Part shown: one piece after another, positions 1,484 to 26,490 of the stretch
Numbering within the stretch: the stretch's first letter is position 1
Layout: each line of letters begins with the position of its first letter
Origin: a virus
DNA: 36,932 nt
IMG/VR virus record: IMGVR_UViG_3300027898_000022
Coordinates: 1-36,932 of that record
Strand: one strand, 5' to 3'
Program-made: the position numbers and the translations under genes
The notes under the pieces: generated by a model
What the model saw: the letters and a program-made list of their open reading frames with translations, nothing else
Told to the model about the DNA's origin: nothing
Database searches by the model: none

Positions 1484-2849
1484 GTTCCTAGAGCAATACA
1501 CACCTGATCAAATAGCCATGATGAGATGGAACTGGCCTTTCTGGGCCCGACCGGATCAGCTCCCTCCTCCCGGCGAGGACTGGAATACATGGTTGATTCT
1601 TGCAGGTCGTGGATGGGGTAAGACACGAACCGGAGCTGAGACTATTCGCTCTTGGGTTTGTGGGACTACTCCTTTGTCAAAGGGCCGGTACGGTCGTATC
1701 GCCCTCGTAGCTGAAACTACTGCCGATGCTCGGAACGTCATGGTGGATGGTGAGTCTGGCTTAATGAATATCTTCCCTAAAGATTTTAAGCCGACTTACC
1801 AGCCATCTCTTCGTATGTTGACTTGGCCTAATGGGGCTATCGCTACTACGTATAACGCTACAGAGCCAGACCAGCTTCGTGGTCCTCAGCATGATGCTGC
1901 ATGGTGCGATGAGTTGGCTAAGTGGAAGTACATGCAAGAAACATGGGACCAGCTACAATTTGGTCTTCGGTTGGGTACTAATCCTCGTCAAATCATCACG
2001 ACGACACCACAGCCTAAACCTCTCATCAAAGCATTACTTACACAGAAAGGCGTCGTAGTTACTCGTGGACGCACATTCGACAACAAAGATAACCTCGCCG
2101 CGCCATTCCTTTCCAAGATTACTGAGCGGTTCGGCGGGACACGATTGGGACGGCAAGAGCTGGATGGGGAAATCCTCAACGACATCCCCGGCGCCCTCTG
2201 GACTCGAAGCTCAATCGACAATAACAGAATACATGACGATGATCTTGATTTAGAACGGATCATTGTAGCGGTCGATCCTGCAACATCAAACCAAGAAGGT
2301 AGTGATGAAACAGGCATAATCGTTGTTGGTATGGCCCGTGATAAAGACGGATATGCTCATGGCTACGTCCTTGAAGATGCTAGCCTTAAGGGTAGTCCTG
2401 AAGAATGGGCTCGTCGCGCCACACAGATGTATCGGAAGTACTCTGCAGATCGTATCGTAGCAGAAAAGAACCAAGGTGGTGATATGGTTGAGTCAGTCCT
2501 TCGTGCTGTCGATCGGTCACTCCCAATCAAGCTTGTCCATGCTAGCCGTGGTAAAATAATCCGGGCTGAGCCAGTCTCAGCATTATACGAACAAAACCGG
2601 ATTCACCATGTCGGTACGTTCGACGAGCTTGAAGATCAAATGTGTACGTTCAGTATCGACAACTTTCGTACTAATGGTATGGGGAGCCCCGACCGTGTTG
2701 ACGCTCTTGTCTGGGGTTTTACTGAACTCTTCGAGAAGATTGTCGGACGGCGCAAGTCCAGTCAAGGTACTCCCGGTTATAAAGAAACTCAAGATTACGA
2801 TCCTGTAGATTACTCTACGGCAACACACACCTCATGGATGGCAGGATAG
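1425..2849 (+). CDS. terminase large subunit (TerL): packaging ATPase and nuclease
   Basis: This is the DNA-packaging motor. From the chosen start (474 aa) the Walker A motif GRGWGKT is at residues 61-67, the Walker B with catalytic Glu (WCDEL) is near 160-164, and an RNase H-like nuclease Asp lies in VAVDPATS (D284). A conserved Asp in RVDALVWG near the C-terminus fits the same nuclease fold. The frame is open from 1287, but the upstream part overlaps TerS deeply and looks non-family-like. ATG 1425 follows AAAGG at good spacing; ATG 1407 is the alternative. The gene overlaps the TerS end by 59 bases. It closes with TAG, followed by a hairpin-type gap before the portal gene. Confidence 0.93.
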   Translation: MQQISEAQLLASLPEAERSKFLEQYTPDQIAMMRWNWPFWARPDQLPPPGEDWNTWLILAGRGWGKTRTGAETIRSWVCGTTPLSKGRYGRIALVAETTADARNVMVDGESGLMNIFPKDFKPTYQPSLRMLTWPNGAIATTYNATEPDQLRGPQHDAAWCDELAKWKYMQETWDQLQFGLRLGTNPRQIITTTPQPKPLIKALLTQKGVVVTRGRTFDNKDNLAAPFLSKITERFGGTRLGRQELDGEILNDIPGALWTRSSIDNNRIHDDDLDLERIIVAVDPATSNQEGSDETGIIVVGMARDKDGYAHGYVLEDASLKGSPEEWARRATQMYRKYSADRIVAEKNQGGDMVESVLRAVDRSLPIKLVHASRGKIIRAEPVSALYEQNRIHHVGTFDELEDQMCTFSIDNFRTNGMGSPDRVDALVWGFTELFEKIVGRRKSSQGTPGYKETQDYDPVDYSTATHTSWMAG

Positions 2850-2883
2850 CTGCTTCGCATCATTACGTAATTAGGATTACTAA
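2847..2883 (+). promoter_or_regulatory. intergenic hairpin/SD cassette between terL and portal
   Basis: Directly after the TAG stop come an imperfect small hairpin (GCTGC-TTC-GCATC) and then GTAAT-TAGG-ATTAC, whose loop and 3' arm contain the AGGA Shine-Dalgarno, followed by CTAA and the portal ATG. It is a diverged member of the family found at 11834, 13988 and 14912. Unlike those, it has no open micro-ORF. Confidence 0.55.
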
Positions 2884-6174: not shown

Positions 6175-6196
6175 CTCACATATATAGGAATATAGA

Positions 6197-7525
6197 ATGG
6201 CTGTTGCTGCTGTAACGGTTGATCAAGCAAAACTCGTCCTTAATTCGTTTGCCGCGATCTTCCAAAATAACCTCGTCTCGAAGGACCTCGTGACGTGGCG
6301 TAAATTTGACTCTGAAATGAACGACCGAAATGGCTTGACTGTTGTCGAGCAGGTTGGTCCTCGCTATGTCGTGACCCAAACGACCTCTGGTGTTAATGAC
6401 CTCACCGCTGGTGTGCAGGATTCGATCTTCGGTTCGGAACAATACAAACTAAATACTGTCTTCGGTGCCAGCATGGGTTGGGGCGACTTCGTCAAAATCC
6501 GTGACTTGGGTGAAGCCCGTGAGTCGATGGCCCTCAAGAACGCTGCGATGCAGCTTTGCGAGAAGATCGATGCGTACATTCTGGGTTTTGTGGCTCAGGC
6601 TGCAAATAACTGGGTTGGTACTCCGGGTAACAGTGTCTCGACCTTTAACGATGTCGCTTCGGCGTATACTCGTCTGAAGGAAGAGGGTGCTGATGACGCA
6701 GACATCCGTGCCGTCCTGACTTACGGTGACAAGCAATCACTCGGTAACGCTATCCTGACCTCGACAGGTAACGCTGCTTTGGCTGATATGGGCGTCGGTG
6801 TTTATCGGAATGGTTGGGAAGGTAGCGTCGCGGGTATCCCGACGTTGTTTACTCAACAGCTTCCAACGATTACCGCAGGTACTCGCACGAATGGTACGCT
6901 CAACGGTGCTGCTCAGAATACCGACTACGCTCTCGTAGCTATCTCGGGTGCTCCGGGCCAGTATCTCACCCAGACGATTAGTGTCACGGGCCTTGGTGCT
7001 GGTGGTACTGTTGAAGACGGCGCTGTGTTTAACCTTGCCGGTGTCAATGCGTATGATAACCGACTCCAAGCTTCGTTGGGTCGTTCACAGGACTTCCGAG
7101 TCGTGGGTTCGTACACCGCAGATGGTTCGGGTAACGTCGCTGCACTTCGTATCTTCCCTGCAATTATCGTACCCGGTACGGTTCAGCCCGGTGAAGATAC
7201 TGGTTCGACGAATGCGAATACCGCACACGCTACGGTTACTGCGATCCCTGCTGCTAACGCTGCATTGACGTGGAAAACCGCTGCTAACTCGACGATTAAA
7301 CCACGTGTTATCGCGAACAAGTCTTCGGTGGTTATCGCATGTGCTGACCTCATCACGCCCGCTACCGGTATTGGTTCGCGCAAGTCGCTGACCAAACTTC
7401 CGCTTAGCGTTCGTATGTGGCAGGACTCGGTGTTCGCTACTGGTGATCACCGTATTCGGTTTGACGTCGCACTTACTGCTAACGTGGTGGATCGTCGTCG
7501 GATGGTTCGTCTTAACGGCGCATAA
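6197..7525 (+). CDS. major capsid protein, P22 coat (gp5)-like
   Basis: The 442-residue product is near the P22 coat length of about 430. The N-terminal half has the coat-family pattern: LNSFAAIFQNNLVSKDLVTW, then KFDSEMNDRNGLTV, and FGASMGWGDFVKIRDLGEA. A central valine/glycine/alanine-rich section may be an inserted beta domain of the kind found in P22-type coats. The HK97 fold is known for this family and is assumed here. It follows the scaffold gene and is directly followed by a terminator-like hairpin. Codon use is more GC-rich and regular than its neighbours, fitting very high expression. Confidence 0.92.
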   Translation: MAVAAVTVDQAKLVLNSFAAIFQNNLVSKDLVTWRKFDSEMNDRNGLTVVEQVGPRYVVTQTTSGVNDLTAGVQDSIFGSEQYKLNTVFGASMGWGDFVKIRDLGEARESMALKNAAMQLCEKIDAYILGFVAQAANNWVGTPGNSVSTFNDVASAYTRLKEEGADDADIRAVLTYGDKQSLGNAILTSTGNAALADMGVGVYRNGWEGSVAGIPTLFTQQLPTITAGTRTNGTLNGAAQNTDYALVAISGAPGQYLTQTISVTGLGAGGTVEDGAVFNLAGVNAYDNRLQASLGRSQDFRVVGSYTADGSGNVAALRIFPAIIVPGTVQPGEDTGSTNANTAHATVTAIPAANAALTWKTAANSTIKPRVIANKSSVVIACADLITPATGIGSRKSLTKLPLSVRMWQDSVFATGDHRIRFDVALTANVVDRRRMVRLNGA

Positions 7526-7530
7526 TATAT

Positions 7531-7569
7531 GTCAGGGGCCTCTGCTTAGCACGCCCCTGATTTCTTTTT
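7531..7569 (+). terminator. rho-independent terminator after the coat gene
   Basis: TCAGGGGC (532-539 of this kilobase) pairs perfectly with GCCCCTGA (553-560) across a 13-nt loop and is followed by TTTCTTTTT. It lies six bases after the coat stop. Since the genes downstream have no visible promoter, it probably works as a partial terminator that raises coat mRNA relative to tail mRNA; this effect is inferred. Confidence 0.8.
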
Positions 7570-7570
7570 A

Positions 7571-7600
7571 GTAATCGATGCTTTGCATCTAAGGAATGAC
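7571..7600 (+). promoter_or_regulatory. hairpin/SD cassette before the 90-aa decoration-like gene
   Basis: GATGC-TTT-GCATC at 7577-7589 is a 13-nt hairpin with 5-bp stem and triloop, the loop complement of GATGC-AAA-GCATC used further downstream. It is followed by TAAGGA (Shine-Dalgarno) and the ATG at 7601. It carries only a 4-codon ORF (MLCI). Confidence 0.55.
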
Positions 7601-7873
7601 ATGGCTGATCTAGTAATTAAAGAACGGTATTCTCCTGTTGTAATGGGGGCTAATTCAACCGCATCAGTAAACGGTGTTCAGCTAGGCGGCTTTGTAGCTT
7701 TGACCAGCGGAACTATTACAGTTACTCGTAATAATGATGACGGTACGACTACGGTTATTATCAATGCTGTACCAGTAACCGCAGGTGTTTACCTCCCTCT
7801 TCCTTTTTTCCTAGGAAGTCATGGTGGAACGGTAACCCTAGCAGGTGGTGCATCAGGGACATTAGCTGTCTAA
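7601..7873 (+). CDS. small structural protein, possible head decoration (90 aa)
   Basis: ATG 7601 has a good AAGGA site; the frame is open six codons further upstream. The sequence is rich in Val, Thr and Gly with alternating beta-strand pattern and ends GGTVTLAGGASGTLAV, a beta-sandwich-like profile common in capsid decoration proteins. It follows the coat gene, which fits. No specific family is recognised. Its stop overlaps the next ATG (TAATG). Confidence 0.7.
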   Translation: MADLVIKERYSPVVMGANSTASVNGVQLGGFVALTSGTITVTRNNDDGTTTVIINAVPVTAGVYLPLPFFLGSHGGTVTLAGGASGTLAV

Positions 7874-7998
7874 TGATTTCAGAATGGTCCCAGTCGGAGC
7901 AAGGAAGCGCTCCAGTCGTAGTAGGTAATCCTAGCCTTGCGTTTAATCAAACACGCAATAGTATGTACATCATATTCTTTCCGTTATGGAGTAACTAA
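7873..7998 (+). CDS. hypothetical protein (41 aa), coupled between two structural genes
   Basis: This short frame exactly fills the gap between two genes, sharing one base with each (TAATG at both ends), an arrangement that supports translation. The product starts MISEWSQSEQGSAPVVVG and ends with a hydrophobic patch (MYIIFFPLWSN). It has no recognisable family. It may be a small virion or linker protein; the hydrophobic end is too short and polar-flanked to call a membrane anchor with confidence. Confidence 0.55.
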   Translation: MISEWSQSEQGSAPVVVGNPSLAFNQTRNSMYIIFFPLWSN

Positions 7999-9551
7999 TG
8001 TCTCAAACTTATACAATCCTTGATGGAACTGGAGCCTCGCAGACTGTTACTGTACCGACTCTAGGACAACAAGTCTCTGCTAGCTCAACTCCTGTTGTAA
8101 TCGCGAGTGATCAGACAGCAGTACCTGTTTCTGCTTCGGCTTCGTCTCCTATCTATATTGCAGATGCGTACCTTGCAGCTCAGAATGCTACTTGGACTTC
8201 TGCTACCGCAGCTAATACTGCTGTTAGCACGACTTGTCTTGGCTATGATGGTGTCATGGTCAGCCTTAAAGGCTCTGGCACAATCACGGGTGGACACGTC
8301 ACATTTGAAGTCTACGATGGCGCTGCATGGCTGCCTATCAAAGGGTTTGCTCTTGAATCCTATAATGGTTATTCGGGTTACCCTCTTTCTGGTAGCCTCA
8401 ATAATGGTCTTCAATTTGATTTTGCAGGATGTACTCAATTCCGTGTCCGTCTAGATACACAGATTACGGGCTCAGGCTCGATGGGTATTAGCCTTAACGT
8501 AACTTCGGCACCTATGGTACCAGGTATGAGCGTCGGCCTTGACCCTGCTTCGAGCCTCCCTACTGGTACGAATGTTATTGGTCAGGTAACAGCAAATGCT
8601 GGTACTAACCTTAATACTTCAAGCCTCGCACTTGAGACTGGTGGTAACCTAGCTGGTATTAATACTAAGATTACTACGACTGCAAATGGTATTAAAGTAG
8701 ATGGTTCAGCAGTTACACAGCCTATTTCAGGTACGGTAACGGCTAACGCAGGTACAGGTACGTTTGCTATCTCGGCAGCTAGCCTTCCTGCTCTGTCGGG
8801 TACTACTGCTGTTAGCCTTGCTTCAGTACCTCTTCCGACTGGTGCTTCTACGTCTGCTAACCAGCCTACTAACGCTGCAGCAGCTAGTACTACATCAGGT
8901 CAGACTGGTACTCTTCATCTAGGCGCGGTTACAACGTCAGCACCAGCATATACAACTGCAACGTCTAACTATCTTAGCTTGACGACTCTTGGTGGTCTCC
9001 GTCACGATATTTCATCGTACAACGGTACTGCATTGACTGGTACGGTTACCGCATATGGTACTGCCCCTACCGGTAACGTTTTTGGTGTAAACGCCTATAT
9101 CACGAATACTCCAGCAGTTACGATTACATCTGGTACTGTCACCACGGTATCGACTGTCACTGCAGTAACGAATATTACTAACGGTACGCCTATTTCTCCT
9201 TCGGCTACTATCGGTGGGTTTACAACGTATAGCACGTTGATTGCTGCAGCTACGACTAACGCTACACTTGTCAAGGCTAGTTCTGGTAACATTGGTGTAA
9301 TTAACGTATTTAACGCTGCTGCGTCTGTACGTTATCTCAAACTGTTTAACAAAGCTACTGCACCTGTTCCGGGTACTGATACCCCAATCTTGAATATCCC
9401 TATCGGTGCTGGTCAGTCTGTTACTATCAGTAACCCTGCAGGTATTAAGTTTGCAACCGGTATTGGTTTTGCTCTTACCGGTGGATCGGCTTTGCTTGAT
9501 GCGACTGCATGTACCGCCGGTGACGTAATCCTCAACATTGCTTACATCTAA
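7998..9551 (+). CDS. low-complexity beta-rich structural protein (517 aa)
   Basis: The protein is dominated by Thr, Ser, Ala, Gly and Val and shows repeated segments such as SASSTPVVIASDQTAVPVS near the N-terminus and recurring GTVTANAGTG-like units near residues 190-260. This pattern is typical of phage fibre or head-fibre shafts. Residues about 60-170 look like a globular beta domain (FEVYDGAAWLPIKGF, FRVRLDTQITGSG). It lies between the coat and tail accessory genes, so a capsid-surface or tail-attached fibre is possible. No enzymatic motif is seen, and the exact role is unknown. Confidence 0.8.
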   Translation: MSQTYTILDGTGASQTVTVPTLGQQVSASSTPVVIASDQTAVPVSASASSPIYIADAYLAAQNATWTSATAANTAVSTTCLGYDGVMVSLKGSGTITGGHVTFEVYDGAAWLPIKGFALESYNGYSGYPLSGSLNNGLQFDFAGCTQFRVRLDTQITGSGSMGISLNVTSAPMVPGMSVGLDPASSLPTGTNVIGQVTANAGTNLNTSSLALETGGNLAGINTKITTTANGIKVDGSAVTQPISGTVTANAGTGTFAISAASLPALSGTTAVSLASVPLPTGASTSANQPTNAAAASTTSGQTGTLHLGAVTTSAPAYTTATSNYLSLTTLGGLRHDISSYNGTALTGTVTAYGTAPTGNVFGVNAYITNTPAVTITSGTVTTVSTVTAVTNITNGTPISPSATIGGFTTYSTLIAAATTNATLVKASSGNIGVINVFNAAASVRYLKLFNKATAPVPGTDTPILNIPIGAGQSVTISNPAGIKFATGIGFALTGGSALLDATACTAGDVILNIAYI

Positions 9552-9560
9552 GGATAAGGT

Positions 9561-10337
9561 ATGACTTTAGTCTCTCAAATTATTACTGATGCTTATCGTG
9601 AAACTAACGTCATACCTGTGTCTCAGCTTCCTAGTACAGATCAGTATTCAGAAGCTTTGATCCGTCTCGAAACACTCGTACTTAGCGTCATAGGCAACGA
9701 AGCAGGAGAACAGCTTCAGCCTATGGCGTTAGGGCAGCTTGATATTAATGCTCCGTCAGGTTATCCTTGGTACGCTAATAGCCTCCCTGCAGATCAGTTC
9801 ATTCCTGAGAATACTCGGTTGATGTGCAATCTCACAGGGTTTGGTAACGTCAATCTCCACCCTCGTCCTAATGATGGGGCTAGGTTTGGTGTCGTAGACG
9901 TAGCCCAAAACTTTAGTACTCACAACCTTCAGGTTAACGGTAATGGCCGTAACATTAATGGATTGGCTGATATTGTTCTTCAGACGTCTGCATTTGACGG
10001 CGAGTGGATGTATCGAGGTGATCTAGGTAACTGGGTTACTCTTAACAATTTGACACTTACTGGGACATTCCCATTCCCGCCTGAGTTCGATGACATGTTT
10101 GTCATCATGTTAGCTGCACGGTTAAATCCTCGGTACGGACAAACACTCGACCCTGCTTCATTAGAGCAGCTTAAACGTACTAGGAACCAGTTCCGGGCAC
10201 GATATAAACAAGTCATCCCAGTTGCTAGTGAAGATGGTCTTCTCTACATGAGCGGTGATCTTCGTTATGGTGGACGGTTCCGTAACCGGTTGTATGGCAG
10301 CTCGCCTCAATTCTTCAATACAGGATACCCATTCTAA
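9561..10337 (+). CDS. tail accessory factor, P22 gp4-like (head completion)
   Basis: The N-terminus (MTLVSQIITDAYRETNVIP, then EALIRLETLVLSVIGNEAGEQL) matches the helical adaptor pattern of P22 gp4-type packaged-DNA stabilisation proteins, which bind the portal after filling. The C-terminal half has the conserved FPPEFDDMFVIMLAARLNPRYG segment of the family. At 258 aa it is longer than P22 gp4 (166 aa) but normal for related phages. ATG follows AAGGATAAGGT, and its stop overlaps the next gene start (TAATG). Confidence 0.82.
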   Translation: MTLVSQIITDAYRETNVIPVSQLPSTDQYSEALIRLETLVLSVIGNEAGEQLQPMALGQLDINAPSGYPWYANSLPADQFIPENTRLMCNLTGFGNVNLHPRPNDGARFGVVDVAQNFSTHNLQVNGNGRNINGLADIVLQTSAFDGEWMYRGDLGNWVTLNNLTLTGTFPFPPEFDDMFVIMLAARLNPRYGQTLDPASLEQLKRTRNQFRARYKQVIPVASEDGLLYMSGDLRYGGRFRNRLYGSSPQFFNTGYPF

Positions 10338-10597
10338 TGCGTATGACCCGCCCGACTAAAGTACTGGCTCAATGGCCCGCATACTATTATAGTCTTGACG
10401 GGGAAGCACGTATCTTTAATAAAGCTGAAGACGTTCCTTTGAATTGGTTTAGGACTCCTCCTGAGACTCATAAAGAAGGTGAGCCCCGGGAGGGTGTTCT
10501 CTTAGACCGTGAATATTACGTCAAAGCCTTAGAAGACAAAGGTATCGAGATTGATCCTCGATGGCCAATCGTTCATATGAAACATCTCGTAGGATAA
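10337..10597 (+). CDS. small hypothetical tail-module protein (86 aa)
   Basis: The gene overlaps the previous stop by one base and ends four bases before the plug gene. The product has the pattern W..YYYSLDGEARIFNKAEDVPLNW, an aromatic-rich short motif seen in several phage proteins of unknown role near head-tail genes. There are no cysteines and no membrane segment. The context, between gp4-like and gp10-like genes, suggests a minor connector component; function unknown. Confidence 0.72.
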   Translation: MRMTRPTKVLAQWPAYYYSLDGEARIFNKAEDVPLNWFRTPPETHKEGEPREGVLLDREYYVKALEDKGIEIDPRWPIVHMKHLVG

Positions 10598-10600
10598 AAG

Positions 10601-11833
10601 ATGCCTCAAATCCCATTAGGAAGACAAGCATATCAAAGAGACTTTGCTAATGAGATTGAAATTCAATGTCTAAATCGTTTCTTTGAAACTAACCCCACAA
10701 ACCCTGAAGACCAAGTCTCACTCTTGGCTCGACCCGGTAGTACTCCTTTGGTGACTACAAGTGATGTCGGCCTAGTCCGTGGCTTCTATAGCCATCCGGG
10801 TTTCTTTAATGGTGATCTATTTTTTGTTACTGGTACGAGTATGTATCGGTATACTACGACAGGTACGTTGATACCTATTTCGAGTTATATCGAAAACCAA
10901 GGACAGGTCTCAATGACCTTCATGATTGGTGCAGGGTATGAGTATCTCTTTATCACTGACGGGACACTCCTACAGTACTATAAAGGTGGTGTCAAAGGTA
11001 CTAGCGTTCTAACCGTTACAGGAAGTATCACCAACCAAGTCATACAGATTGGGGCGAACTATTACACATGGGGAACATCCCCTCACGGTGTCGCTGCCGG
11101 TACTGCTGCCAGCCCTTGGGTCGCAACGCTTGGCGGTACTACGGCGCAAAGCCTTCAAAACATGGTAAATCTGTTATCATTTACAGGTGCTCTGGGGACT
11201 GATTTTTCGAGTAATCTCGGTGGTCAAAATCCTGATGTTACTGCTGTGGTCTCAGGTAATACGATTGTATTGACGAGTAAGTCAGACTTATCTTCGGCTA
11301 ACTCAATTGCTACTACGGTGTACTCTGGTACAGGTATGGCATTTGGTACGACTACGATTACTGGTGCTGGTGTACATGTCCTGTATGGTATCGAGATGCC
11401 TAACGGACTTCCAGTCAAGAGTTGTGCCAGTCTTGCTAGCCATGTCCTTCTGAGTATCACGGGAAGTAATCAATTTTACTTTCTACGTCCCGGAAGCCTT
11501 GTAGTAGACCCGCTGGACTTCGCAACTGCGGAGAGTCAGCCTGACGTACTTCAAGACCTTGTAACCGTAGGTGATACTGTCTGGATGATTGGTGAAGGAC
11601 ACACAGAGGCTTGGTACGCTACTGGAGATAGTCTATCGCCTTTTCAACCTACACAAGGACGTGTCTATGATCGTGGTGCCGTTCCTGGTACTGCAGTCAA
11701 AGTAAAAGACGAAGTCATCATTGTAGGGTTTGACGGTATCGTATATAGTATCGGACGTGGAGTCCAACGTATTTCACATCACGGTATTGAAGAGCGTATC
11801 AGAACACAACTCAAAAGAGAGTCAGGAACTTAG
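10601..11833 (+). CDS. tail plug protein, P22 gp10-like, N-terminal part (split gene)
   Basis: The first residues (LGRQAYQRDFANEIEIQCLNRFFETNP, then SLLARPGSTPL) and the later segment LVTVGDTVWMIGEGHTEAWYATGD with GVQRISHHGIEERIR are conserved in P22 gp10-type packaged-DNA stabilisation (plug) proteins. In the family, as I know it, the chain continues after the HGIEERIR segment into a second beta-rich half with GHxFYV and TWVYD motifs. Here the frame stops at residue 410 and that second half appears 2.2 kb downstream, in the gene at 14024. Residues about 140-245 look like an inserted beta domain. AAAAG precedes the ATG. Confidence 0.8.
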   Translation: MPQIPLGRQAYQRDFANEIEIQCLNRFFETNPTNPEDQVSLLARPGSTPLVTTSDVGLVRGFYSHPGFFNGDLFFVTGTSMYRYTTTGTLIPISSYIENQGQVSMTFMIGAGYEYLFITDGTLLQYYKGGVKGTSVLTVTGSITNQVIQIGANYYTWGTSPHGVAAGTAASPWVATLGGTTAQSLQNMVNLLSFTGALGTDFSSNLGGQNPDVTAVVSGNTIVLTSKSDLSSANSIATTVYSGTGMAFGTTTITGAGVHVLYGIEMPNGLPVKSCASLASHVLLSITGSNQFYFLRPGSLVVDPLDFATAESQPDVLQDLVTVGDTVWMIGEGHTEAWYATGDSLSPFQPTQGRVYDRGAVPGTAVKVKDEVIIVGFDGIVYSIGRGVQRISHHGIEERIRTQLKRESGT

Positions 11834-11869
11834 ATGCAAAGCATCGTAATCGTAATCAAGGATTACTAA
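11834..11869 (+). promoter_or_regulatory. hairpin/SD cassette with 11-codon micro-ORF (copy 1)
   Basis: It starts directly after the TAG stop of the plug N-part gene. GATGC-AAA-GCATC (5-bp stem, triloop) is followed by GTAATC-AAG-GATTAC (6-bp stem, triloop), which contains the AAGGA Shine-Dalgarno, and the next gene's ATG is at 11870. Bases 11834-11869 are also an open frame (MQSIVIVIKDY, stop TAA) sitting exactly between the flanking stop and start. It may be a translation-coupling or regulatory RNA element. Confidence 0.6.
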
Positions 11870-13987
11870 ATGGCAACACTTTTCATGGATAATGGAGAAA
11901 TTTACGGTGTCTCCGCTGCTGCCTTGAATGGTATGTATGCTCAAGTTTCTTCTGATATTACTACAGGTATCGTTGCTAATAAAATATGCTTTACCTTAAA
12001 TGGTGGGGATATTCTCCGTAAAGTCCTCCCTGCTACTTATACTAACCTGTTTACAGGGTTTCGTTGGTACGTAACCAGCCTTCCTAGTACGACAGGTCAG
12101 GGTCCTTTTGTTGATATTCGTGATACGAATAATAATACTCTAGGGCGTATCTACATTGATACGACTGGCCGTTTAAACGTTACTAATAGTGCTGGTGCTA
12201 TTGTTGCTACGAGTACATCTCCTGTTATTACAGCGAGTACGTGGCATTACATCGAGATGAACTGGCAGTTATCTAGTACATCTGGGTATCTTGAAGTTCG
12301 CATTGATGACTCGTCTACGCCATGTCTTGTCTATTCAGGTGCGTTTGATAGTACGACTCCTATTGCTCAGGTAGCATATGGTAGTAATACTACGACTTCA
12401 TCTTTGACAGATATGCACGTCTGGGATACAACTGGGACGCGGAATACCACATTTATTGGTGACTTTCAGGTGGCTGTTCTTTGGCCTGTCACAGACGTAC
12501 AAACAGGATGGACGCCTAATTATCGTAAGAAGATTGGCAACGGTATTGGTTCTTTCACCAACGGTGTCCTCGCTTTTGCTGATAACCCACGGCTTAATCC
12601 CGGTAGCGGTGATTATACTATCGAGAGCTTTTTCAGATTTACGTCATTACCTACGAGTAATAACCGTGTACCTTTGATTGCTAAATGGTGTGAAGTCAAC
12701 GCCAACCAACGTAGCTTTGAGTTGAGCCTATGTGGTCCGGGCCTGAATGGTGGCAATATCGAGTTCCGTATTAGTACTGATGGTACTGCTAATACGACTC
12801 AAACACTCTTTAGCCAACCCTATACATTTAATCCGGGGCAATGGTATCACATCGCAGTCTCCAGAGCATCTGGTCAGACTATGTTGTTTATCAATGGTGT
12901 TCTCCAGAACGTACCCGTGACAGACGTGAATACGTATTACGCATGCACGTGGCCTATTGTCATTGGCGGTGGTACTGTCAGTTTTACTGGTAGTGCAGAA
13001 TATGCTGGTCTAAACAGCCAGTTCATCGGCTACATGGACGAGACACGTTATACTACAGCGGCTAGGTATACGACTAATTTCACACCTACTACGGTACCGT
13101 TTGGTCGTAATCTCGCTAACGACTCTCTCTGGAACAACGTCGTACTTCTTCTCGGGTACGAGTCTGCTCCTCAAGATGAGAGTCAGTATAATGAGACTCC
13201 GTATGCTCCGTACAATAATACGGTGATGCCTACGTCTTATCTTCCAGATGATGGTATAGGACAGTGGAGTGCCATAGGTGCTGAGGATACAGAAGCGTTT
13301 CTGGCTCCTCGTGATGATACATATATTTCGGCTACATTGTCTCGTGCTACTAATATTCTGACGTTGGGTGGTAACCCTACGGATGGTCAGACAGTAACGA
13401 TTGGTAGCCAAGTCTACACGTTTAAGACTGCATTGACTACAGGGTATCAAGTCCTGATTGGTGCGAGTATATCTGCAAGCCTCCATAATCTTGCTCAGGC
13501 AATCAATGGCGGTACAGGTGCAGGGACGTTATACAGTTCCGATATTGCTGCTAATCCTAATGTACAGAGTCAAGAACTCCCGTCTCCTCAGATGGAAATC
13601 TTGGCTAACACAGCGGGTAGTGCAGGTAATAGTATCGGTCCATGTAGCACGAATATCCCGAGTTCGGTATGGGCTACTACCAATCTTTCAGGTGGTGCTG
13701 ACATCCCCGGACCAAGTAGCTTCAAGCTTTCTCGGTTGCCTATTGGTATTACGATTGTTCGTAGTGTCATGGCAGTAACCCGAGCATTCAAGACTGAGGC
13801 TGGTCCTGCTAAAATGAAGACTAACTTCGTAGGTGCAGGTGGTACGATTACTCAAGGACCTGAGATTGCACTCGCAGTCAATCCGACTTATAACACAGCC
13901 GTCTTCGAGCTTGACCCCGATACGGGAACTGCTATTACTCCAGCAACTCTAACATCGGGGCAGATTCAATTCAATAGGACTGTCTAG
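11870..13987 (+). CDS. LamG/concanavalin-like tail protein, candidate receptor binder (705 aa)
   Basis: Residues about 15-215 and 235-410 look like two LamG/concanavalin-type beta-sandwich domains; the second has the typical GQWYHIAVSRASGQTMLFINGVLQ followed by GYMDETRYTTAARYTTNFTPT. Residues about 490-610 carry a third domain of a kind seen in phage tail proteins (DGQTVTIGSQVYTFK ... SAGNSIGP ... TTNLSGGAD). LamG domains bind glycans or proteins, so attachment to the host surface is likely but inferred. The gene lies between the two parts of the plug gene and is flanked on both sides by near-identical hairpin cassettes, suggesting later insertion. Confidence 0.82.
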   Translation: MATLFMDNGEIYGVSAAALNGMYAQVSSDITTGIVANKICFTLNGGDILRKVLPATYTNLFTGFRWYVTSLPSTTGQGPFVDIRDTNNNTLGRIYIDTTGRLNVTNSAGAIVATSTSPVITASTWHYIEMNWQLSSTSGYLEVRIDDSSTPCLVYSGAFDSTTPIAQVAYGSNTTTSSLTDMHVWDTTGTRNTTFIGDFQVAVLWPVTDVQTGWTPNYRKKIGNGIGSFTNGVLAFADNPRLNPGSGDYTIESFFRFTSLPTSNNRVPLIAKWCEVNANQRSFELSLCGPGLNGGNIEFRISTDGTANTTQTLFSQPYTFNPGQWYHIAVSRASGQTMLFINGVLQNVPVTDVNTYYACTWPIVIGGGTVSFTGSAEYAGLNSQFIGYMDETRYTTAARYTTNFTPTTVPFGRNLANDSLWNNVVLLLGYESAPQDESQYNETPYAPYNNTVMPTSYLPDDGIGQWSAIGAEDTEAFLAPRDDTYISATLSRATNILTLGGNPTDGQTVTIGSQVYTFKTALTTGYQVLIGASISASLHNLAQAINGGTGAGTLYSSDIAANPNVQSQELPSPQMEILANTAGSAGNSIGPCSTNIPSSVWATTNLSGGADIPGPSSFKLSRLPIGITIVRSVMAVTRAFKTEAGPAKMKTNFVGAGGTITQGPEIALAVNPTYNTAVFELDPDTGTAITPATLTSGQIQFNRTV

Positions 13988-14023
13988 ATGCAAAGCATCG
14001 TTGACGTAATCAAGGATTACTAA
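13988..14023 (+). promoter_or_regulatory. hairpin/SD cassette with 11-codon micro-ORF (copy 2)
   Basis: It has the same layout as the copy at 11834: directly after TAG, GATGC-AAA-GCATC, then GTAATC-AAG-GATTAC with the AAGGA site, then the ATG at 14024. The embedded frame reads MQSIVDVIKDY and stops at TAA immediately before that ATG. The two copies differ only at 4-5 bases in the middle and keep the frame. Confidence 0.6.
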
Positions 14024-14911
14024 ATGAGTGGAGTATCTGATCTAACACACGGTACTCCGGTTACACAAGGGGGGATGTATTATCTTGGACAAGGTGGTAC
14101 ATCTCCTAGTGTAGCACAAGCACCGTTACTGGCAGCAGTACGAACTACACCAGTACATGAAATTCGTGTATCACAAACACCAATCATGGCTGCTTATATA
14201 CCTCGTGTTGCTAAGACAGTAAAACTAAATCAGACAGCCTTACTAGGCTTGGTATCAGGAGCAAATGACTTGTCAGTCGATGTAACACAAGGAGCCCTGC
14301 TGATTGGTTTCAAATCAGGTATCCCTACTCAGACACGAAATCGTTCATGGACTTTTGACTTTGACGGACATACATTCTATGTTCTTGATCTTGGTCCAGA
14401 AGGTACTTGGGTTTATGATCAAGTAACCCAACAGTGGTGTAAATTTGAAACACCCGGCTTTGGCCAATGGAATATGATTAACGGATTTGACTGGGAGTCA
14501 GGCCGTAAGATCATTGGTGGTGATGCGATCTATAGTAAGATTTATTATATGGACCCAACGAGCCATCTTGATGATGGATTTCGTAGCGTCATCTACACGG
14601 TTACAGGTGGTTTACCATCTCGGAGTAGGACAGGAAAAAGCGTAGACTCAGTACGTCTTGCTGCTAGTGTTGGTAATCTCACTGATCCGACACAACCTAT
14701 GCCTACTATTAGTCTTCGCTTTAGTGATAACTATGGAGGAACGTGGAGCCAAGAATACCCATTCGCCTTACAGGCAGGAAATTACGATCAAAGAGTTGAA
14801 TGGAATAGTCTCGGTCAAATGAAGATACCCGGACGAGTCTTTGAATTTACTACAACCGGTGGTCTGGTTCACATTGATGGAGCAGATGCACAAATAGACG
14901 GGCAGGAATAG
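14024..14911 (+). CDS. tail plug protein, P22 gp10-like C-terminal part with VTQ-repeat N-terminus
   Basis: Residues about 95-290 resemble the second half of gp10-type plug proteins: SWTFDFDGHTFYVLDL, EGTWVYDQVTQQWCKF, then SLRFSDNYGGTWSQE and RVFEFTTTGGLVHIDG at the end. The first 95 residues differ: they hold repeated units of the type SVAQAPLLAAVR, VSQTPIMAAYIP, LNQTALLGLVSG and VTQGALLIGF, a short repeat found in phage tail proteins. The protein may work together with the 410-aa product as a two-piece plug, or be a separate tail protein with a shared domain. ATG follows AAGGATTACTAA in a hairpin cassette. Confidence 0.75.
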   Translation: MSGVSDLTHGTPVTQGGMYYLGQGGTSPSVAQAPLLAAVRTTPVHEIRVSQTPIMAAYIPRVAKTVKLNQTALLGLVSGANDLSVDVTQGALLIGFKSGIPTQTRNRSWTFDFDGHTFYVLDLGPEGTWVYDQVTQQWCKFETPGFGQWNMINGFDWESGRKIIGGDAIYSKIYYMDPTSHLDDGFRSVIYTVTGGLPSRSRTGKSVDSVRLAASVGNLTDPTQPMPTISLRFSDNYGGTWSQEYPFALQAGNYDQRVEWNSLGQMKIPGRVFEFTTTGGLVHIDGADAQIDGQE

Positions 14912-14981
14912 ATGCAAAGCATCGTCACCGTAGATACTTTGTATCATAACGACGCTACGCGTCTAATCAAGGATTACTAAT
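14912..14981 (+). promoter_or_regulatory. four-hairpin cassette with in-frame 22-codon micro-ORF (copy 3)
   Basis: After the TAG stop come three 13-nt hairpins with 5-bp stem and triloop, GATGC-AAA-GCATC, GATAC-TTT-GTATC and GACGC-TAC-GCGTC, then TAATC-AAG-GATTA with the AAGGA site and the ATG at 14982. The stems differ in sequence but keep pairing. Compared with copies 1 and 2 there are 33 extra bases, and the micro-ORF (starts MQSIV, ends IKDY) stays open across all of them. Confidence 0.6.
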
Positions 14982-15506
14982 ATGTCAAATCCTAACCCTT
15001 GGCCTTGGAACTCTCCAATGAGTACGCCAGAAGGGTTGGCTACACCAGAATTTCTTAGATGGCTGAGTATTCAGCTAACATATAATACTCTTCTAAATAC
15101 TGCGACTCCAGAGTCCCGTAAGATCATTGCGGGTACAGGATTAACGGGAGGAGGTGATCTAAGTTCTGATCGGACAATCGCACTGGCTGCTACGTTAGGG
15201 CAACTCTCCGATGTAGATGAAACGACGACCCCGCCGAGTAATGGACAAGTTCTCGGTTTTAATGGTACTAAGTGGATACCGGTGACAGTAGCAAATCCGT
15301 TGTCTGTGTACCAAGCAGGTACGTCGGTTGTAGGAAGTGTCGTAAAATTAAACTTCACAGGCTCAGGAGTAACTGTTACTACCTCAGCCGCAGGTGAAGC
15401 CGATATTGCAATCACGGGTGGTTCTAGTCTCTCATTTATGTTTACAGGAGACATACCAGTCAACATTATGTGCTTACCCGATGGTACACCAATTTACGTA
15501 GGATAA
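14982..15506 (+). CDS. short tail fibre-like protein (174 aa)
   Basis: Residues about 48-70 carry IAGTGLTGGGDLSSDRTIAL, a motif common in phage tail fibre and adhesin segments, followed by GQLSDVDETTTPPSNGQVLGFNGTKWIPV, another fibre-associated repeat type. The N-terminal 35 residues (PWPWNSPMSTPEGLATPEFLRWLSIQL) may attach it to the tail. A C-terminal beta segment ends GTPIYVG. It is short for a fibre and may form a shaft or adaptor with the 259-aa protein encoded immediately downstream. Specific receptor unknown. Confidence 0.75.
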   Translation: MSNPNPWPWNSPMSTPEGLATPEFLRWLSIQLTYNTLLNTATPESRKIIAGTGLTGGGDLSSDRTIALAATLGQLSDVDETTTPPSNGQVLGFNGTKWIPVTVANPLSVYQAGTSVVGSVVKLNFTGSGVTVTTSAAGEADIAITGGSSLSFMFTGDIPVNIMCLPDGTPIYVG

Positions 15507-15509
15507 TAT

Positions 15510-16289
15510 ATGTCAGCCTCTCCTTTGATTACTACCTATCTAGGTTCGGGTCTTCTTGCAAGTCGTCCCGCTACTCCTAGTATACCTACAAATGGTTTGG
15601 CTGTTTGGAGAAGTACTGATACTGGAACTACAAGCGTATATGATACGGCTTGGCATGACCTAGGAACTGGAGGGGGAGGAGGTAGTACCAATCCCACAGT
15701 CCGTGCTGCAGGAAGTTATCTTTCATCTAGCCTCAGCTCGTATAACATGCCTCTTCCTACAGGAAGCCTATCAGGAGATACGATTTTTATCTTCGCAGCA
15801 GGAAGCTATAACTGGTCAACCCCGACTGGGTTTACAATCCTTGACTCTGCTAGCGGTGGTAGCTGGAATGGTATTACATGTTGGAAAGTATTGACTTCGG
15901 GAGATATTAGTACCGGTTATATCACAGTTGCCCAGTCTTCGAGTGGACGAGGAGCAATCCATGCAATTGTCTTTAAGAGTGGTTGTACAGTCCGTACTCA
16001 TATTATGACGCATGGTAATACTAGCGACAACTACGGTATTACTTTGACATCAGATAGTACACCAACAACTGCAGATACCGCAATTATGTTTGCTTCTGCT
16101 AACCTTAAAAGTCCGGGTTTCATTACGCTTGGTACTCCTATCTTGGCTCTACAAACTACAGACTATCATGTTACTCAGACTAACGAAATTACACCACTAA
16201 ACAACGATGTCATTCAAGCTACGGCTTGGTGGCCCAACAATGCAAGTAGTGGTTATTATGTCAGTATGGTAGTAGTCAAACAACCGTAA
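15510..16289 (+). CDS. fibre-tip or tail-associated protein (259 aa)
   Basis: The N-terminal segment RPATPSIPTNGLAVWRSTDTGTTSVYDTAWHDL is a fibre-type linker, followed by a glycine run (GGGGG) and a globular Ser/Thr-rich beta domain from about residue 65 to the end (SYNWSTPTGFTILDSASGGSW, RGAIHAIVFKSGC, YYVSMVVVKQP). This resembles distal domains of phage fibres, so host-surface contact is a reasonable inference. The gene begins three bases after the previous stop and is followed by the holin candidate. Confidence 0.72.
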   Translation: MSASPLITTYLGSGLLASRPATPSIPTNGLAVWRSTDTGTTSVYDTAWHDLGTGGGGGSTNPTVRAAGSYLSSSLSSYNMPLPTGSLSGDTIFIFAAGSYNWSTPTGFTILDSASGGSWNGITCWKVLTSGDISTGYITVAQSSSGRGAIHAIVFKSGCTVRTHIMTHGNTSDNYGITLTSDSTPTTADTAIMFASANLKSPGFITLGTPILALQTTDYHVTQTNEITPLNNDVIQATAWWPNNASSGYYVSMVVVKQP

Positions 16290-16297
16290 GGATCGAT

Positions 16298-16471
16298 ATG
16301 CACATTATTCAATATCTTAAAAATCGTATTACTGAACGTAGTACGTGGTTGCTATTCGGAGCCGCAATTTCCTCGGCCTCTGCTTTACCAACCCCTTGGA
16401 GTTACATCTTCTGTGTAACCTCTATGTTAGGAGCACTTGTCCCAGATGGTAAAATTACTGACGTGGCTTAA
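16298..16471 (+). CDS. holin candidate (57 aa membrane protein)
   Basis: GTAAGGATCGAT precedes the ATG. The product has a short cytoplasmic-like basic start (MHIIQYLKNRITERS), then two hydrophobic segments (TWLLFGAAISSASALP and YIFCVTSMLGALVP) and a short polar end. Small two-segment proteins of this pattern next to spanin genes are commonly holins, which make the inner-membrane hole that triggers lysis. The role is inferred from size, topology and direct overlap with the Rz gene. No holin family is assigned. Confidence 0.7.
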   Translation: MHIIQYLKNRITERSTWLLFGAAISSASALPTPWSYIFCVTSMLGALVPDGKITDVA

Positions 16472-17033
16472 GCCGTTTATTCCTTCATGGATGGCTCTTC
16501 TTCCTTATGTGCTAGGAGGCGTAGGACTCGTGAGTCTTTATTTCTACGGTGAACACGTAGGGTATAATAAAGCAAAGAATAAATATACTCAAGAAATAGC
16601 ACAGATACACGAACAAGATGATCGAGTCACAGCGTTGGCTTGGAAAGCGAAATCAGATGCCGAAAGAGTTTATAAACAAAAAGCCGATGAAGCTGATCAG
16701 TCTTATAGTGATCTTGCTAGTAAGTACAATCTTAACCTCTTGCGCTTCAAACAATTACAAGGGATCACAAGAACAAGTAATCCCTCCTCCGTCAATAACA
16801 ATCCCACGAGCAGCAACGGACCCAGTACAGACCCCGTCGTTTCTTCTGGACCAACCGACCAAATCCTAATACCTTACTCGGATGCTGAGATATGTCTGAC
16901 GAATACAGCCCGGCTGAAGACTGTGAGGCTCTGGGCATTGAGTTTACAAGAAACGCCGAAGCCCTTGCCGAAGCCACAAAAGAGTACAGATACGAACTCA
17001 TCGGCTTCGAGCCCAGAGAATGGATCACAATAA
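16446..17033 (+). CDS. Rz: Rz-like i-spanin
   Basis: The product has one N-terminal membrane segment (LLPYVLGGVGLVSLYFYG, about residues 17-34) and then a long charged helical region (about 40-105), the layout of inner-membrane spanins that link to Rz1 and fuse inner and outer membranes at lysis. The Rz1-type lipoprotein is encoded inside it in the +1 frame, which strongly supports the call. The C-terminal 80 residues are Ser/Pro/Asn-rich with two cysteines absent from usual positions. The last 142 bases overlap the next gene in the third frame. ATG 16446 is chosen inside the holin gene; TTG 16437 is possible. Confidence 0.82.
   Translation: MVKLLTWLKPFIPSWMALLPYVLGGVGLVSLYFYGEHVGYNKAKNKYTQEIAQIHEQDDRVTALAWKAKSDAERVYKQKADEADQSYSDLASKYNLNLLRFKQLQGITRTSNPSSVNNNPTSSNGPSTDPVVSSGPTDQILIPYSDAEICLTNTARLKTVRLWALSLQETPKPLPKPQKSTDTNSSASSPENGSQ
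16687..16869 (+). CDS. Rz1: Rz1-like o-spanin lipoprotein, embedded in Rz
   Basis: This 60-aa frame lies wholly inside Rz in the +1 frame. It starts MKLISLIVILLVSTILTSC, a clear lipoprotein signal with lipobox LTSC and Cys19, and continues with a proline-rich mature part (IPPPSITIPRAATDPVQTP), as in Rz1 proteins. The mature protein should sit in the outer membrane and bind Rz across the periplasm. The ribosome site is weak (AAAAAG before ATG), as is usual for embedded Rz1. A longer form from 16618 is unlikely because it would bury the signal peptide. Confidence 0.85.
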   Translation: MKLISLIVILLVSTILTSCASNNYKGSQEQVIPPPSITIPRAATDPVQTPSFLLDQPTKS

Positions 17034-17332
17034 AAGATAACATAGCCCTTATTGATGCTGAGAACAATTACGCCATGTTTGAAAAAGGAGATGACGGTTA
17101 TTATACTGGTCACTACTTCTTCAATGCTAGAGGACGTAAAGCACTTCGCATTGCTAAGGCTATGTTATATTTCTTATTCTCACATACTGATATTAAAGTA
17201 GTACGAGGGTTGACCCCGTTACAAAAACTAGGAGCAAGATGGATGAGTAGACAACTAGGATTCAAATCTTATGGTGTCGTACATACGCAATCTGGCCCTT
17301 GTGAACTCTTCATCTTAGTCAAGGAACAATAA
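16892..17332 (+). CDS. GNAT-like late protein (146 aa), possible internal virion protein
   Basis: The sequence pattern (EWITIKDNIALIDAENNYAMFE, a middle helix RKALRIAKAMLYFLFSH, then VVRGLTPLQKLGARWMSRQLGFKSYG) resembles acetyltransferase-fold proteins encoded beside podovirus ejection genes, such as the gp13-type proteins of T7-like phages. The arginine-rich GARWMSRQLGF near the end is typical of the C-terminal GNAT half. An active enzyme cannot be shown. The start lies within the Rz gene; its stop overlaps the next start (TAATG). Confidence 0.7.
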   Translation: MSDEYSPAEDCEALGIEFTRNAEALAEATKEYRYELIGFEPREWITIKDNIALIDAENNYAMFEKGDDGYYTGHYFFNARGRKALRIAKAMLYFLFSHTDIKVVRGLTPLQKLGARWMSRQLGFKSYGVVHTQSGPCELFILVKEQ

Positions 17333-18120
17333 TGGGATCGATCTTCGGAGGCTCACATAATAGTAGCGCAAGCCAAAGCCAGAGTCAACAGCAATCACAG
17401 AACTCTAGCCAGTCAGGTAACCTTGCTTATCCGGGCCTGAGCACAGCGTTAAACCCTCAGGTCAATACTGGTGTCCAAGCTAATACAGGCTTGGGGAGTC
17501 TTCTTGGTGTCGGCGGTGATCCTGCTGCACAGCAAGCCGCGTTTAACAACTACAAGAATAGCACAGGGTATCAGTTCCAACTCGATCAAGGTAACCAAGC
17601 TGTTACAGACTCGGCTGCTAGTAAGGGTCTACTCGACAGTGGCGCTACTGGTAAGTCTCTTGAAGCATACGGCCAGAACCTCGGGAACACTACGTTTAAC
17701 AACTATCTCGATCAGCTTCGTGGGCTGTCTAACTCGGGCACGACTGCAGCGGGTGTCATCGGAAGTACTGGCCAACAGTCTTCAAGCCAAGGCACAAGCA
17801 GCGGTTCCAGCACCAGCGTTGGTACCGGTAATGGAAGCAGCAAGCCCGGTATTGGTGGTCTTATTGGTGGTGGTCTCAGCGCTATCGGTGCTAGCGATAT
17901 ACGAGTAAAACGTGACATCAAGAAGGTCGGAGAGTACAAGGGACTGAACGTTTATACGTTTAAGTATAAAGAAGGATTTGGTCCTAACCTTAACAAGGAA
18001 TACATTCCTAACGATAATGAATATATTGGTGTCATGGCTAATGAGGTTAGGGACTTGTATCCTGAAGCTCTTGGCCCCGAGATTAATGGATACATGACCG
18101 TCAACTATGGAGCACTGTAA
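17332..18120 (+). CDS. DNA ejection/pilot-type protein with short S74-like C-terminal domain
   Basis: Residues 1-40 are Ser/Gln-rich and disordered. Residues about 65-135 contain YQFQLDQGNQAVTDSAASKGLLDSG and TGKSLEAYGQNLGNTTFNNYL, a motif common in phage DNA-transfer and pilot proteins. After a glycine/serine linker, residues about 187-262 read SDIRVKRDIKKVG, YTFKYK, YIGVMANEVRDLYPEAL and VNYGAL, the pattern of the S74 intramolecular chaperone domain. Family knowledge says S74 helps trimers fold and may cleave itself off; whether this short form cleaves is unknown. It overlaps the neighbours on both sides by one base. Confidence 0.78.
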   Translation: MGSIFGGSHNSSASQSQSQQQSQNSSQSGNLAYPGLSTALNPQVNTGVQANTGLGSLLGVGGDPAAQQAAFNNYKNSTGYQFQLDQGNQAVTDSAASKGLLDSGATGKSLEAYGQNLGNTTFNNYLDQLRGLSNSGTTAAGVIGSTGQQSSSQGTSSGSSTSVGTGNGSSKPGIGGLIGGGLSAIGASDIRVKRDIKKVGEYKGLNVYTFKYKEGFGPNLNKEYIPNDNEYIGVMANEVRDLYPEALGPEINGYMTVNYGAL

Positions 18121-19418
18121 TGGCAGGATTCGATCCTAACGACCCTGACGATCACGCATATATGGCTCAGTACTTAGCCCAGATTGCTCCAAATAGTCTC
18201 TCTGCTCCTACCGGTGGTAGTGATAATATGGACTATGCTAAGAACACTGGGGGTAATAATTGGTCAGACGCAGTAAATGCTGCACCAGCGAACGTACCCT
18301 CAGGTAGTCCTCTTGATCCTAATCTAGGAAGTCCTCAGGGTATTCCTATGGCCACGGCGATGTCTCAACCTGTAGTCTCACAAGATGCTGACCAAACAGT
18401 AATGGCTGATCCTAATGCAGGACAAGGACCGTCACCACAGTCTAATCCAGATGTAGTCGTGAAGGCTACTAATCCTATTACCCCCGGAGAAGACTCTTCT
18501 GCTCCTCCTCCACGATTGAGTAATCAAAATACTCTTGGGGCGGCACAAGATGCTAATGCAGCGGCGCCTCCTCATCATGGTTTGTTCCATGTCTCTGGGA
18601 CGCTACGTGATGTCCTAGGTACCTTGGGTGATGCTTTCTTGACACAGGCTGGACATAATAGTGTCTATGCTCCGAGACGTCAAGAAGAAAAACTCAGCGA
18701 TGCGTTGACTGGGTTCAATCAGCCTAAGACTTATAATCCTGATGGGACTGTTAAGACTGATCCATTTGCAGCAGCGATTACTCGTGTCTCGGCATTGCCG
18801 GGTGGGGCCGAAATAGCGAGTAAACTCTACGAACAAAATCAGGCTAATCAATTTCGTGCTGCGAATATCAGCAGTCAAATTGATGCTCGGACTAATCGTA
18901 ATCAACAGCAACATGAAGTCACGCTTAATAATGGTCGTAAGCAAATTGGTGGTATCATGGCAGCAGCTACGGCTAACCCAAAGCTCGCTCCTCTTGCTAT
19001 CCAACAGGCTTATGCGTACGCCAAAGCTAATGGTCTAGACCCTGAAAACGAACTAGGTCTCAAGCCTGATATGACCCGTGAAGAAATGGCTCTATATGGT
19101 CAAGGCACCATGAATGCTAACCAGCAAGCAATGGTTCCTATCAAGCAACAGAATGCTGATGCGGCTACTCAGAATGCTCAAGCTCGAACTATTACTGCTA
19201 ATAAGTATCAACCTAGTTCTGCTCGTCCTGCACCTGCTGCTACACAAAGTAATGTTGTGGCTAAGGTGTTGAATAAAGCTACATCTCAAGGTGTTGATAA
19301 ACTTAATCCTGCTGAAAAAGATATTTACAATAGGTATGGAGCCCCGCCTGTAAAGAAGATTAGAAACTTCACAGGTACCGTACCACCTCTTCGTCCGGGA
19401 TTTAACGTAACCAAATAA
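18120..19418 (+). CDS. internal virion/ejection protein candidate (432 aa)
   Basis: The protein is rich in Ala, Asn, Gln and Pro, with a long disordered N-terminal part (residues 1-145). A more ordered block follows (HGLFHVSGTLRDVLGTLGDAFLTQAGH, then YAPRRQEEKLSDALTGF), then a helical Gln/Asn/Ala-rich region (about 235-380). Such proteins next to the large ejection protein in P22- and T7-like phages are packaged in the capsid and injected with DNA; this is inferred from position and composition. No enzymatic motif is visible. Confidence 0.72.
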   Translation: MAGFDPNDPDDHAYMAQYLAQIAPNSLSAPTGGSDNMDYAKNTGGNNWSDAVNAAPANVPSGSPLDPNLGSPQGIPMATAMSQPVVSQDADQTVMADPNAGQGPSPQSNPDVVVKATNPITPGEDSSAPPPRLSNQNTLGAAQDANAAAPPHHGLFHVSGTLRDVLGTLGDAFLTQAGHNSVYAPRRQEEKLSDALTGFNQPKTYNPDGTVKTDPFAAAITRVSALPGGAEIASKLYEQNQANQFRAANISSQIDARTNRNQQQHEVTLNNGRKQIGGIMAAATANPKLAPLAIQQAYAYAKANGLDPENELGLKPDMTREEMALYGQGTMNANQQAMVPIKQQNADAATQNAQARTITANKYQPSSARPAPAATQSNVVAKVLNKATSQGVDKLNPAEKDIYNRYGAPPVKKIRNFTGTVPPLRPGFNVTK

Positions 19419-19427
19419 GGATAAAGT

Positions 19428-24233: not shown

Positions 24234-24241
24234 AGGATATT

Positions 24242-25896: not shown

Positions 25897-25918
25897 CAAT
25901 TATGTTAAACGAAGTTCG

Positions 25919-26368: not shown

Positions 26369-26490
26369 CTTCTTTCCTTATGTTTCCATAAGGTTCGGAC
26401 TATATCATCATCTTTCAATTAAGAAAGAGTCGGGCGCTTCCACTCACTTGAGTGTACTCCTTGCGGATAGTCTCTGAACCTTCTATACAT

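Follow-up and report, generated by a model that had tools for sequence, protein, structure and literature searches.

A repeated linker cassette at late-gene junctions

The DNA analysed here, IMG/VR record IMGVR_UViG_3300027898_000022 (positions 1 to 36,932; these 36,932 bases are hereafter the window), arranges its genes as short-tailed, P22-like phages do, with terminase, portal, scaffold, capsid, head closure and ejection proteins in this order. Among its late genes, three consecutive cistrons close on TAG (at 11833, 13987 and 14911) and are each followed by a short linker of the same design, which we call c1, c2 and c3, before the ATG of the next gene (at 11870, 14024 and 14982, respectively). 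These linkers begin with ATGCAAAGCATCGT and finish with AAGGATTACTAA, after which the next ATG comes directly (c1 and c2) or after one T (c3). Their elements follow a fixed order: the TAG, a GATGC-NNN-GCATC hairpin (hairpin 1), a spacer, a TAATC-AAG-GATTA hairpin that contains a Shine-Dalgarno (SD) sequence (hairpin 2), a TAA and the next ATG. A preliminary description of this DNA had reported three such linkers behind TAG codons, each with an uninterrupted micro open reading frame (micro-ORF), and they lie exactly where it had placed them.

The copy c1 (11834–11869, plus strand, 36 nucleotides (nt)) separates HcN, the gene for the N-terminal part of the head-closure protein, from a gene with a LamG-type domain, and its micro-ORF reads MQSIVIVIKDY followed by a stop. 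Its first hairpin (11833–11845, GATGC-AAA-GCATC) takes in the G of the TAG and its second (11852–11866, GTAATC-AAG-GATTAC) contains the SD AAGGA. Between the LamG-type gene and HcC, the C-terminal part of head closure, lies c2 (13988–14023, plus strand, 36 nt), with its hairpins at 13987–13999 and 14006–14020 and the micro-ORF MQSIVDVIKDY plus stop. The third copy, c3 (14912–14981, plus strand, 70 nt), stands 3′ of HcC and is 33 nt longer. Its 22-codon micro-ORF (MQSIVTVDTLYHNDATRLIKDY and a stop) covers 69 nt, with the TAA at 14978–14980 followed by one T and the ATG, and it carries four hairpins: GATGC-AAA-GCATC (14911–14923), GATAC-TTT-GTATC (14933–14945), GACGC-TAC-GCGTC (14951–14963) and the SD-bearing TAATC-AAG-GATTA (14964–14976). 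Translation of the frames confirmed that all three micro-ORFs are open and that, as the preliminary description had it, the longer copy keeps its frame despite the 33 extra nt. The two additional hairpins of c3 each have four of the five stem pairs of GATGC/GCATC and one paired change; such changes keep the stems but may reflect repeat copying rather than RNA selection.

The signals for translation are equally regular in these three copies. The TAG of the upstream gene directly abuts the micro-ORF ATG (spacing 0), with an AGGA 4–8 nt before that ATG, inside the end of the upstream gene. The leader itself holds a second SD (AAGGA) 7–8 nt before the next ATG, and its TAA ends 0–1 nt before it.

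Exact blocks of 17 and 22 nt are shared by c1–c3 and are the sole exact direct repeats of at least 17 nt within the window. The evidence for repetition resides in these long blocks, since a looser test with 12-mers allowing up to two mismatches was not significant (6 found against 3.0 expected, with as many in 10 of 100 shuffled sequences). Aligning the linkers locally to the entire window revealed two additional diverged units that the preliminary description had not mentioned. They score 34 (c4) and 33 (c5) against c2, compared with at most 23 in the rest of the window and a best score of 30 in 60 first-order Markov sequences built from the window dinucleotides. The c4 unit (2850–2883, plus strand, 34 nt) lies between the terminase and portal genes as TAG-CTGCTTCGCATCATTACGTAATTAGGATTACTAA-ATG, with a GTAAT-TAGG-ATTAC hairpin that holds the SD in its loop. 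It has no ATG, its first frame stops after six codons, and all three frames are stopped or run out of frame; in a near-identical contig, L091, one extra CTG brings it to 37 nt. The c5 unit (7568–7591, minus strand, 24 nt) is reversed, lies between the capsid-gene terminator and the next gene, and has an internal deletion that fuses TAGATGCAAAGCATCG directly to ATTACTAA on the minus strand; it retains a 16-nt exact block and is identical in two close relatives, L007 and L031. The window thus holds a repeat family in two orientations, and the leader frame is absent from c4. All five units are flanked on both sides by TA. These TAs may result from target duplication, or they may merely belong to the two stop codons, of which both are in any case part.

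At the RNA level, the linkers fold moderately better than shuffled sequences (z −2.17, −1.73 and −1.89). Hairpin 1, at −3.6 kcal/mol, is the most stable element common to c1–c3, and modelled SD accessibility in c1–c4 amounts to 0.22–0.65. The window contains 70 perfect 5-bp triloop hairpins, eight of which have an arm at least four-fifths identical to GATGC; six of these eight are cassette hairpins. Non-coding triloop stems of at least 6 bp are also abundant across the clade (58 against 20.2 expected), but we did not use this enrichment as evidence because near copies and terminators are among the 80 sources.

Empty sites in related phages

To define relatives, we searched IMG/VR with the capsid protein, which gave 145 relatives; the best 80 together with L005 made up 81 loci. 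Three contigs, L007, L031 and L091, carry every copy that they cover and are at least 98.5% identical to the window where well aligned (with local minima near 94% and 97%); their only linker differences are an A to G change in c3 (L007) and the extra CTG in c4 (L091). Outside this species, the nearest relatives are L009 and L036, the sisters of the window in the HcC tree (98/98). Both have TAATG at the HcN/middle-gene junction, where the window has c1, and at the junction of HcC with the next gene, where it has c3. The middle-gene/HcC junction, the c2 site, is TAATG in L009 and TAACTGCGTG, short and non-overlapping, in L036, and the terminase/portal junction, the c4 site, is likewise TAATG in L009 and a short non-overlapping TAAATATG in L036. 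The c5 block is absent 3′ of the capsid terminator in both. Under a model of TA target duplication, the empty sites of L009 would leave one extra A. Where c1–c3 have an AGGA at the end of the upstream gene, some relatives have an SD-like sequence at the matching place, such as ACAAGGACGGCGTAATG in L009 and GAAGGAAGCGAGTAATG in L036.

The preliminary description had suggested a search of related phages for the same elements. We scored c1 and c2 against 165 junction segments of relatives; three of them, all from L007, score 78, 78 and 34, and none of the other 162, from relatives outside the species, contains the cassette (best score 22, equal to background). A simple rule was used to call junction starts and lengths, and some long lengths (117 and 77) probably reflect wrong starts, of which the cassette scores are independent. 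Pattern scans of IMG/VR likewise found genuine copies only in L006/L007 and L091, contigs whose identity to the window is 98.5% or more. The other pattern matches were judged to be chance: in L087–L089 the motif falls inside apparent coding sequence unrelated to the cassette, and the eight contigs L101–L108 lack the cassette context. Among 84,980 bacterial and archaeal genomes scanned there were four matches, also attributed to chance, none with a GATGC hairpin upstream; three precede open reading frames (ORFs) of 6–13 codons and the fourth (L100) one of 262 residues. No close cultured relative was available for comparison, as megablast of window positions 7500–24500 against 50,697 phage records gave no match and a capsid protein search in phage records retrieved only six proteins, all below 30% identity. 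Our literature search, from which subscription journals were mostly absent, described neither a cassette of this kind nor the head-closure split seen here.

Neighbouring genes and the split head-closure gene

The preliminary description had called the cistrons around c1–c3 tail genes, a label that profile, Pfam and PDB matches now refine: they are two head-closure (needle-head) halves with a LamG-domain protein between them. HcN (10601–11833, plus strand, 410 residues) matches positions 4–280 of the 486 of phrog_578, the head-closure family Hc3, and residues 141–257 of PDB 7eeq, whereas HcC (14024–14911, plus strand, 295 residues) matches positions 289–471 of the same family and residues 267–422 of the same structure. 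Since both halves match one Hc3 family and protein, the head-closure gene is split here, with c1 at one seam and c2 at the other. The family length is matched by two genes instead of one, and together HcN and HcC cover the 442-residue needle-head protein of P22 gp10/Pam1 type (Hc3, PDB 7eeq); unlike in those phages, in the clade of the window the gene is usually divided in two by another virion gene. The middle gene (11870–13987, plus strand, 705 residues) encodes a LamG/concanavalin-type domain (Laminin_G_3, residues 235–393, PF13385, E value 5.1e-13). The gene after c3 (14982–15506, plus strand, 174 residues) shows weak similarity to tail or baseplate-connector families (best E value 4.8e-7, to a family of unknown function; phrog_677, 1.5e-5). 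Around c4 lie the genes for the terminase large subunit upstream (1287–2849, plus strand, phrog_979, E value 1.5e-34) and the portal protein downstream (2884–5181, plus strand, phrog_156, E value 1.2e-123).

Both head-closure parts could be recognized in 44 of the 81 loci: 34 are split, eight have one gene and in two the middle gene is fused to HcC. These fusions, in L025 (from ~18246) and L037 (12696–15047), join the middle gene in frame to the C-terminal head-closure part. In the HcC tree (45 rows) the one-gene form occupies one side of a single branch (support 99/97) and requires one change, so that a single origin, or a single loss, of the split is most likely. The same split and fused labels require 10 changes on the capsid tree (44 rows). 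As the labels change once on the HcC tree and are scattered on the capsid tree, the tail module has most likely been exchanged between capsid lineages. We considered the cassettes as the cause of the split and rejected this idea, since split relatives lack them; the split is an independent and older feature. We also discarded stop readthrough into a single polyprotein. HcN, the middle gene and HcC do share a frame, yet the HcN/middle-gene overlaps in L009 and L036 are of 1 nt, and the shared frame in the window is therefore a consequence of insert length.

Other features were recorded in the window and its relatives. A Group I intron lies at 26376–26623 (minus strand, RF00028, 100.3 bits) between two parts of a ribonucleotide reductase gene that match phrog_367 positions 30–399 and 400–698, and an HNH/endonuclease VII-like ORF follows (coordinates listed with this region are 25015–25899, 25922–26368 and 26614–27648). 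The ORF at 7998–9551 encodes 517 residues in the window and 461 in the near-identical L007 (L004 numbering), with a divergent stretch at 8583–8826 between flanks that are 99% identical. Other repeated or shared short hairpins, TTGGYAAG-N-CTTRCCAA or similar, occur outside or between genes of relatives: four copies in L075 (630, 1848, 2182 and 2642), two in L067 (1387 and 3325) and two in L021 (2004 and 3441), as well as behind the capsid gene in four near-identical contigs (L050 4639, L052 4639, L054 6977 and L076 1256). In L021, an 18-nt block (AAGGGGAATGAAAATGAC on the other strand) comprising an SD and start region is repeated at two gene starts (928 and 1841).

Origin and possible role of the cassette

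In our view the linkers probably stem from one small, dispersed DNA unit, which has spread recently in one uncultured podovirus species and uncoupled tight gene junctions. Recent spread within one species, rather than loss in all relatives, is suggested by the empty sites of the nearest relatives and by the lack of the cassette in the 162 junction segments. The unit, of ~35–70 nt (24 nt in the truncated copy), would have landed beside a TA at stop-start junctions of the late operon, converting TA^ATG into TA-[G...TAA]-ATG, and once, reversed, in an intergenic stretch. Its first G would complete the upstream stop as TAG, and its 3′ end would supply an SD (AAGGA or AGGA) 7–8 nt before the next ATG. 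In this way 34–70 nt would be inserted between cistrons that overlap or nearly touch in relatives, and a formerly coupled junction would acquire a separate initiation site, whose SD lies in a weak hairpin loop. Termination-reinitiation fades with distance, according to one study (PMC10666635), which makes it likely that the main effect of the cassette is a separate initiation site for each gene downstream. The leader frame of c1–c3 may well be translated by terminating ribosomes, either incidentally or to some advantage. The extra hairpins of c3 are what growth of the unit through hairpin copying would be expected to produce.

Several observations weigh against this explanation. The shared unit is short, and the clear identity of c4 is limited to its 3′ 27–29 nt, a region in which the SD and start context constrain the sequence. 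The unit ends are not clear inverted repeats (GATGC and GATTAC, whose reverse complement is GTAATC, do not match), and we identified no mobilising enzyme or copying mechanism. Hairpin 2 is predicted to be weak (−2.5 kcal/mol in both c1 and c2, 0 in c3 and −0.1 in c4), so masking of the SD may matter little, and a ribosome placed at the upstream stop leaves the modelled SD accessibility of c1–c4 unchanged. An ancestral cassette may instead have been lost in all other lineages.

The preliminary description had proposed that a terminating ribosome restarts on the micro-ORF and is carried through the hairpins to the next gene or, alternatively, that the linkers act through their RNA shape only. 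Put in terms of selection, the ribosome would restart at the abutting ATG, helped by the inherited AGGA, read 11 or 22 codons, open hairpin 2 and stop 0–1 nt before the next ATG, where it restarts. We regard selection for such a relay as unlikely, although the anatomy fits it in three of the five copies, with the zero TAG/ATG spacing, both SD sequences in place and c3 in frame in spite of its extra length. A translated bridge would indeed make sense, because a non-coding gap of linker size nearly abolishes termination-reinitiation: in three gene pairs of E. coli, a simple gap of +38 nt lowered reinitiation by 80–90% or abolished it (PMC10666635). The arrangement also resembles engineered bicistronic leaders, which have a short leader frame with its own SD, a second SD at the 3′ end of this first cistron and a stop that overlaps the second start (PMC5995908); the three natural copies differ in following a full gene. 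It is plausible that ribosomes may well start the leader in c1–c3 and be handed on in the same manner, but such a handover cannot be general because c4 lacks the leader frame. The argument from linker lengths that keep the frame fails within the same genome: c4, with 34 nt (37 in L091), no ATG and a stop after six codons, indicates that the frame is not needed in general and not required in every copy, and the relatives manage without any cassette. The frame is open from stop to start in three of the four plus-strand copies, which is not improbable by chance, since shuffled interiors are open in 46% (36 nt) and 29% (69 nt) of cases, given a length that is a multiple of three. At the codon level, the close relatives are too similar to the window for a test of constraint, and the sole substitution among their linkers, that in c3, cannot separate codon from RNA-shape readings because it is synonymous and lies in a hairpin loop. 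The leader and the mobility of the unit could also be combined, although we find this doubtful: a mobile leader cistron of 33–70 nt would insert into stop-start overlaps and spread through a coupled operon without breaking the coupling, the insert completing the upstream stop, the inherited SD starting a leader of 11–22 codons and the ribosome being handed to the next gene, with c4 and c5 as decayed or misoriented copies.

It is improbable that the cassettes are translational operators, in which GGA hairpins over the SD are bound by a CsrA-type or phage repressor that jointly sets the level of a few virion proteins. An SD in a hairpin loop does recur at the LamG gene, HcC, the gene at 14982 and the portal gene, and at the unrelated capsid start (TATAT-AGGA-ATATA). 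The hairpins are nevertheless weak, the stem test reaches no more than nominal significance per site (p 0.014–0.07) with four cassette sites that are copies and not independent, and the 26 window proteins that were scanned yielded no regulator. The capsid SD hairpin itself, at window positions 6181–6194, has a shuffle p of 0.02. We assign a very low probability to hairpins for RNA processing or mRNA stability that divide the late transcript into segments; hairpin 1 stands directly behind the stop codon as the most stable common element of c1–c3, but stems of 5–6 bp are short for the usual RNA-processing enzymes and c5 is reversed just behind a strong terminator hairpin. Near-identical short intergenic repeats with 5-bp, 3-nt-loop hairpins also recall T7-type promoters or N4-type hairpin promoters. 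We rejected this explanation as having next to no likelihood: the 26 scanned proteins of the window include no phage RNA polymerase (the protein of 1601 residues, which has no Pfam match, is similar to an internal virion protein), the reversed c5 would be directed into the capsid gene and no copies lie near early genes. Integron attC sites were considered and dropped, as neither their size nor their core fits.

Among known elements, REP/BIME, MITEs and Rickettsia palindromic elements are small hairpin units that occur dispersed in both orientations. The unit of the window is much shorter, occurs in a phage in five copies and has neither a transposase link nor inverted ends. A closer likeness is found in the PeSL cassettes of T4-type phages, reportedly described by Arbiol in 2010 and Comeau in 2014 as repeated intergenic stem-loops scattered by recombination and carrying expression signals, and said to be promoter-terminator motifs. 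As in their case, one cassette stands at several intergenic sites of one genome, with five units here, and the sites are empty in relatives. In contrast to PeSLs, the units of the window carry a stop completion, a spacer and an SD and lie at tight junctions of late structural genes. Inspection of the sequences, without a dedicated promoter scan, showed neither a run of T after the hairpins nor a sigma70-like pair such as would point to a promoter and terminator of the PeSL type.

The split head closure, with a lectin-like virion gene between its two genes, offers a lead on how short-tailed phages gain virion parts. The cassettes provide an example, documented by the empty sites of relatives, of a repeated unit that brings its own stop completion and SD and has apparently pried tightly spaced phage genes apart. 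Two questions thereby become open to direct test: by what route regulatory spacers spread through the coupled operons of phages, and whether coupling can be preserved by a tiny leader frame across a spacer that should abolish it.

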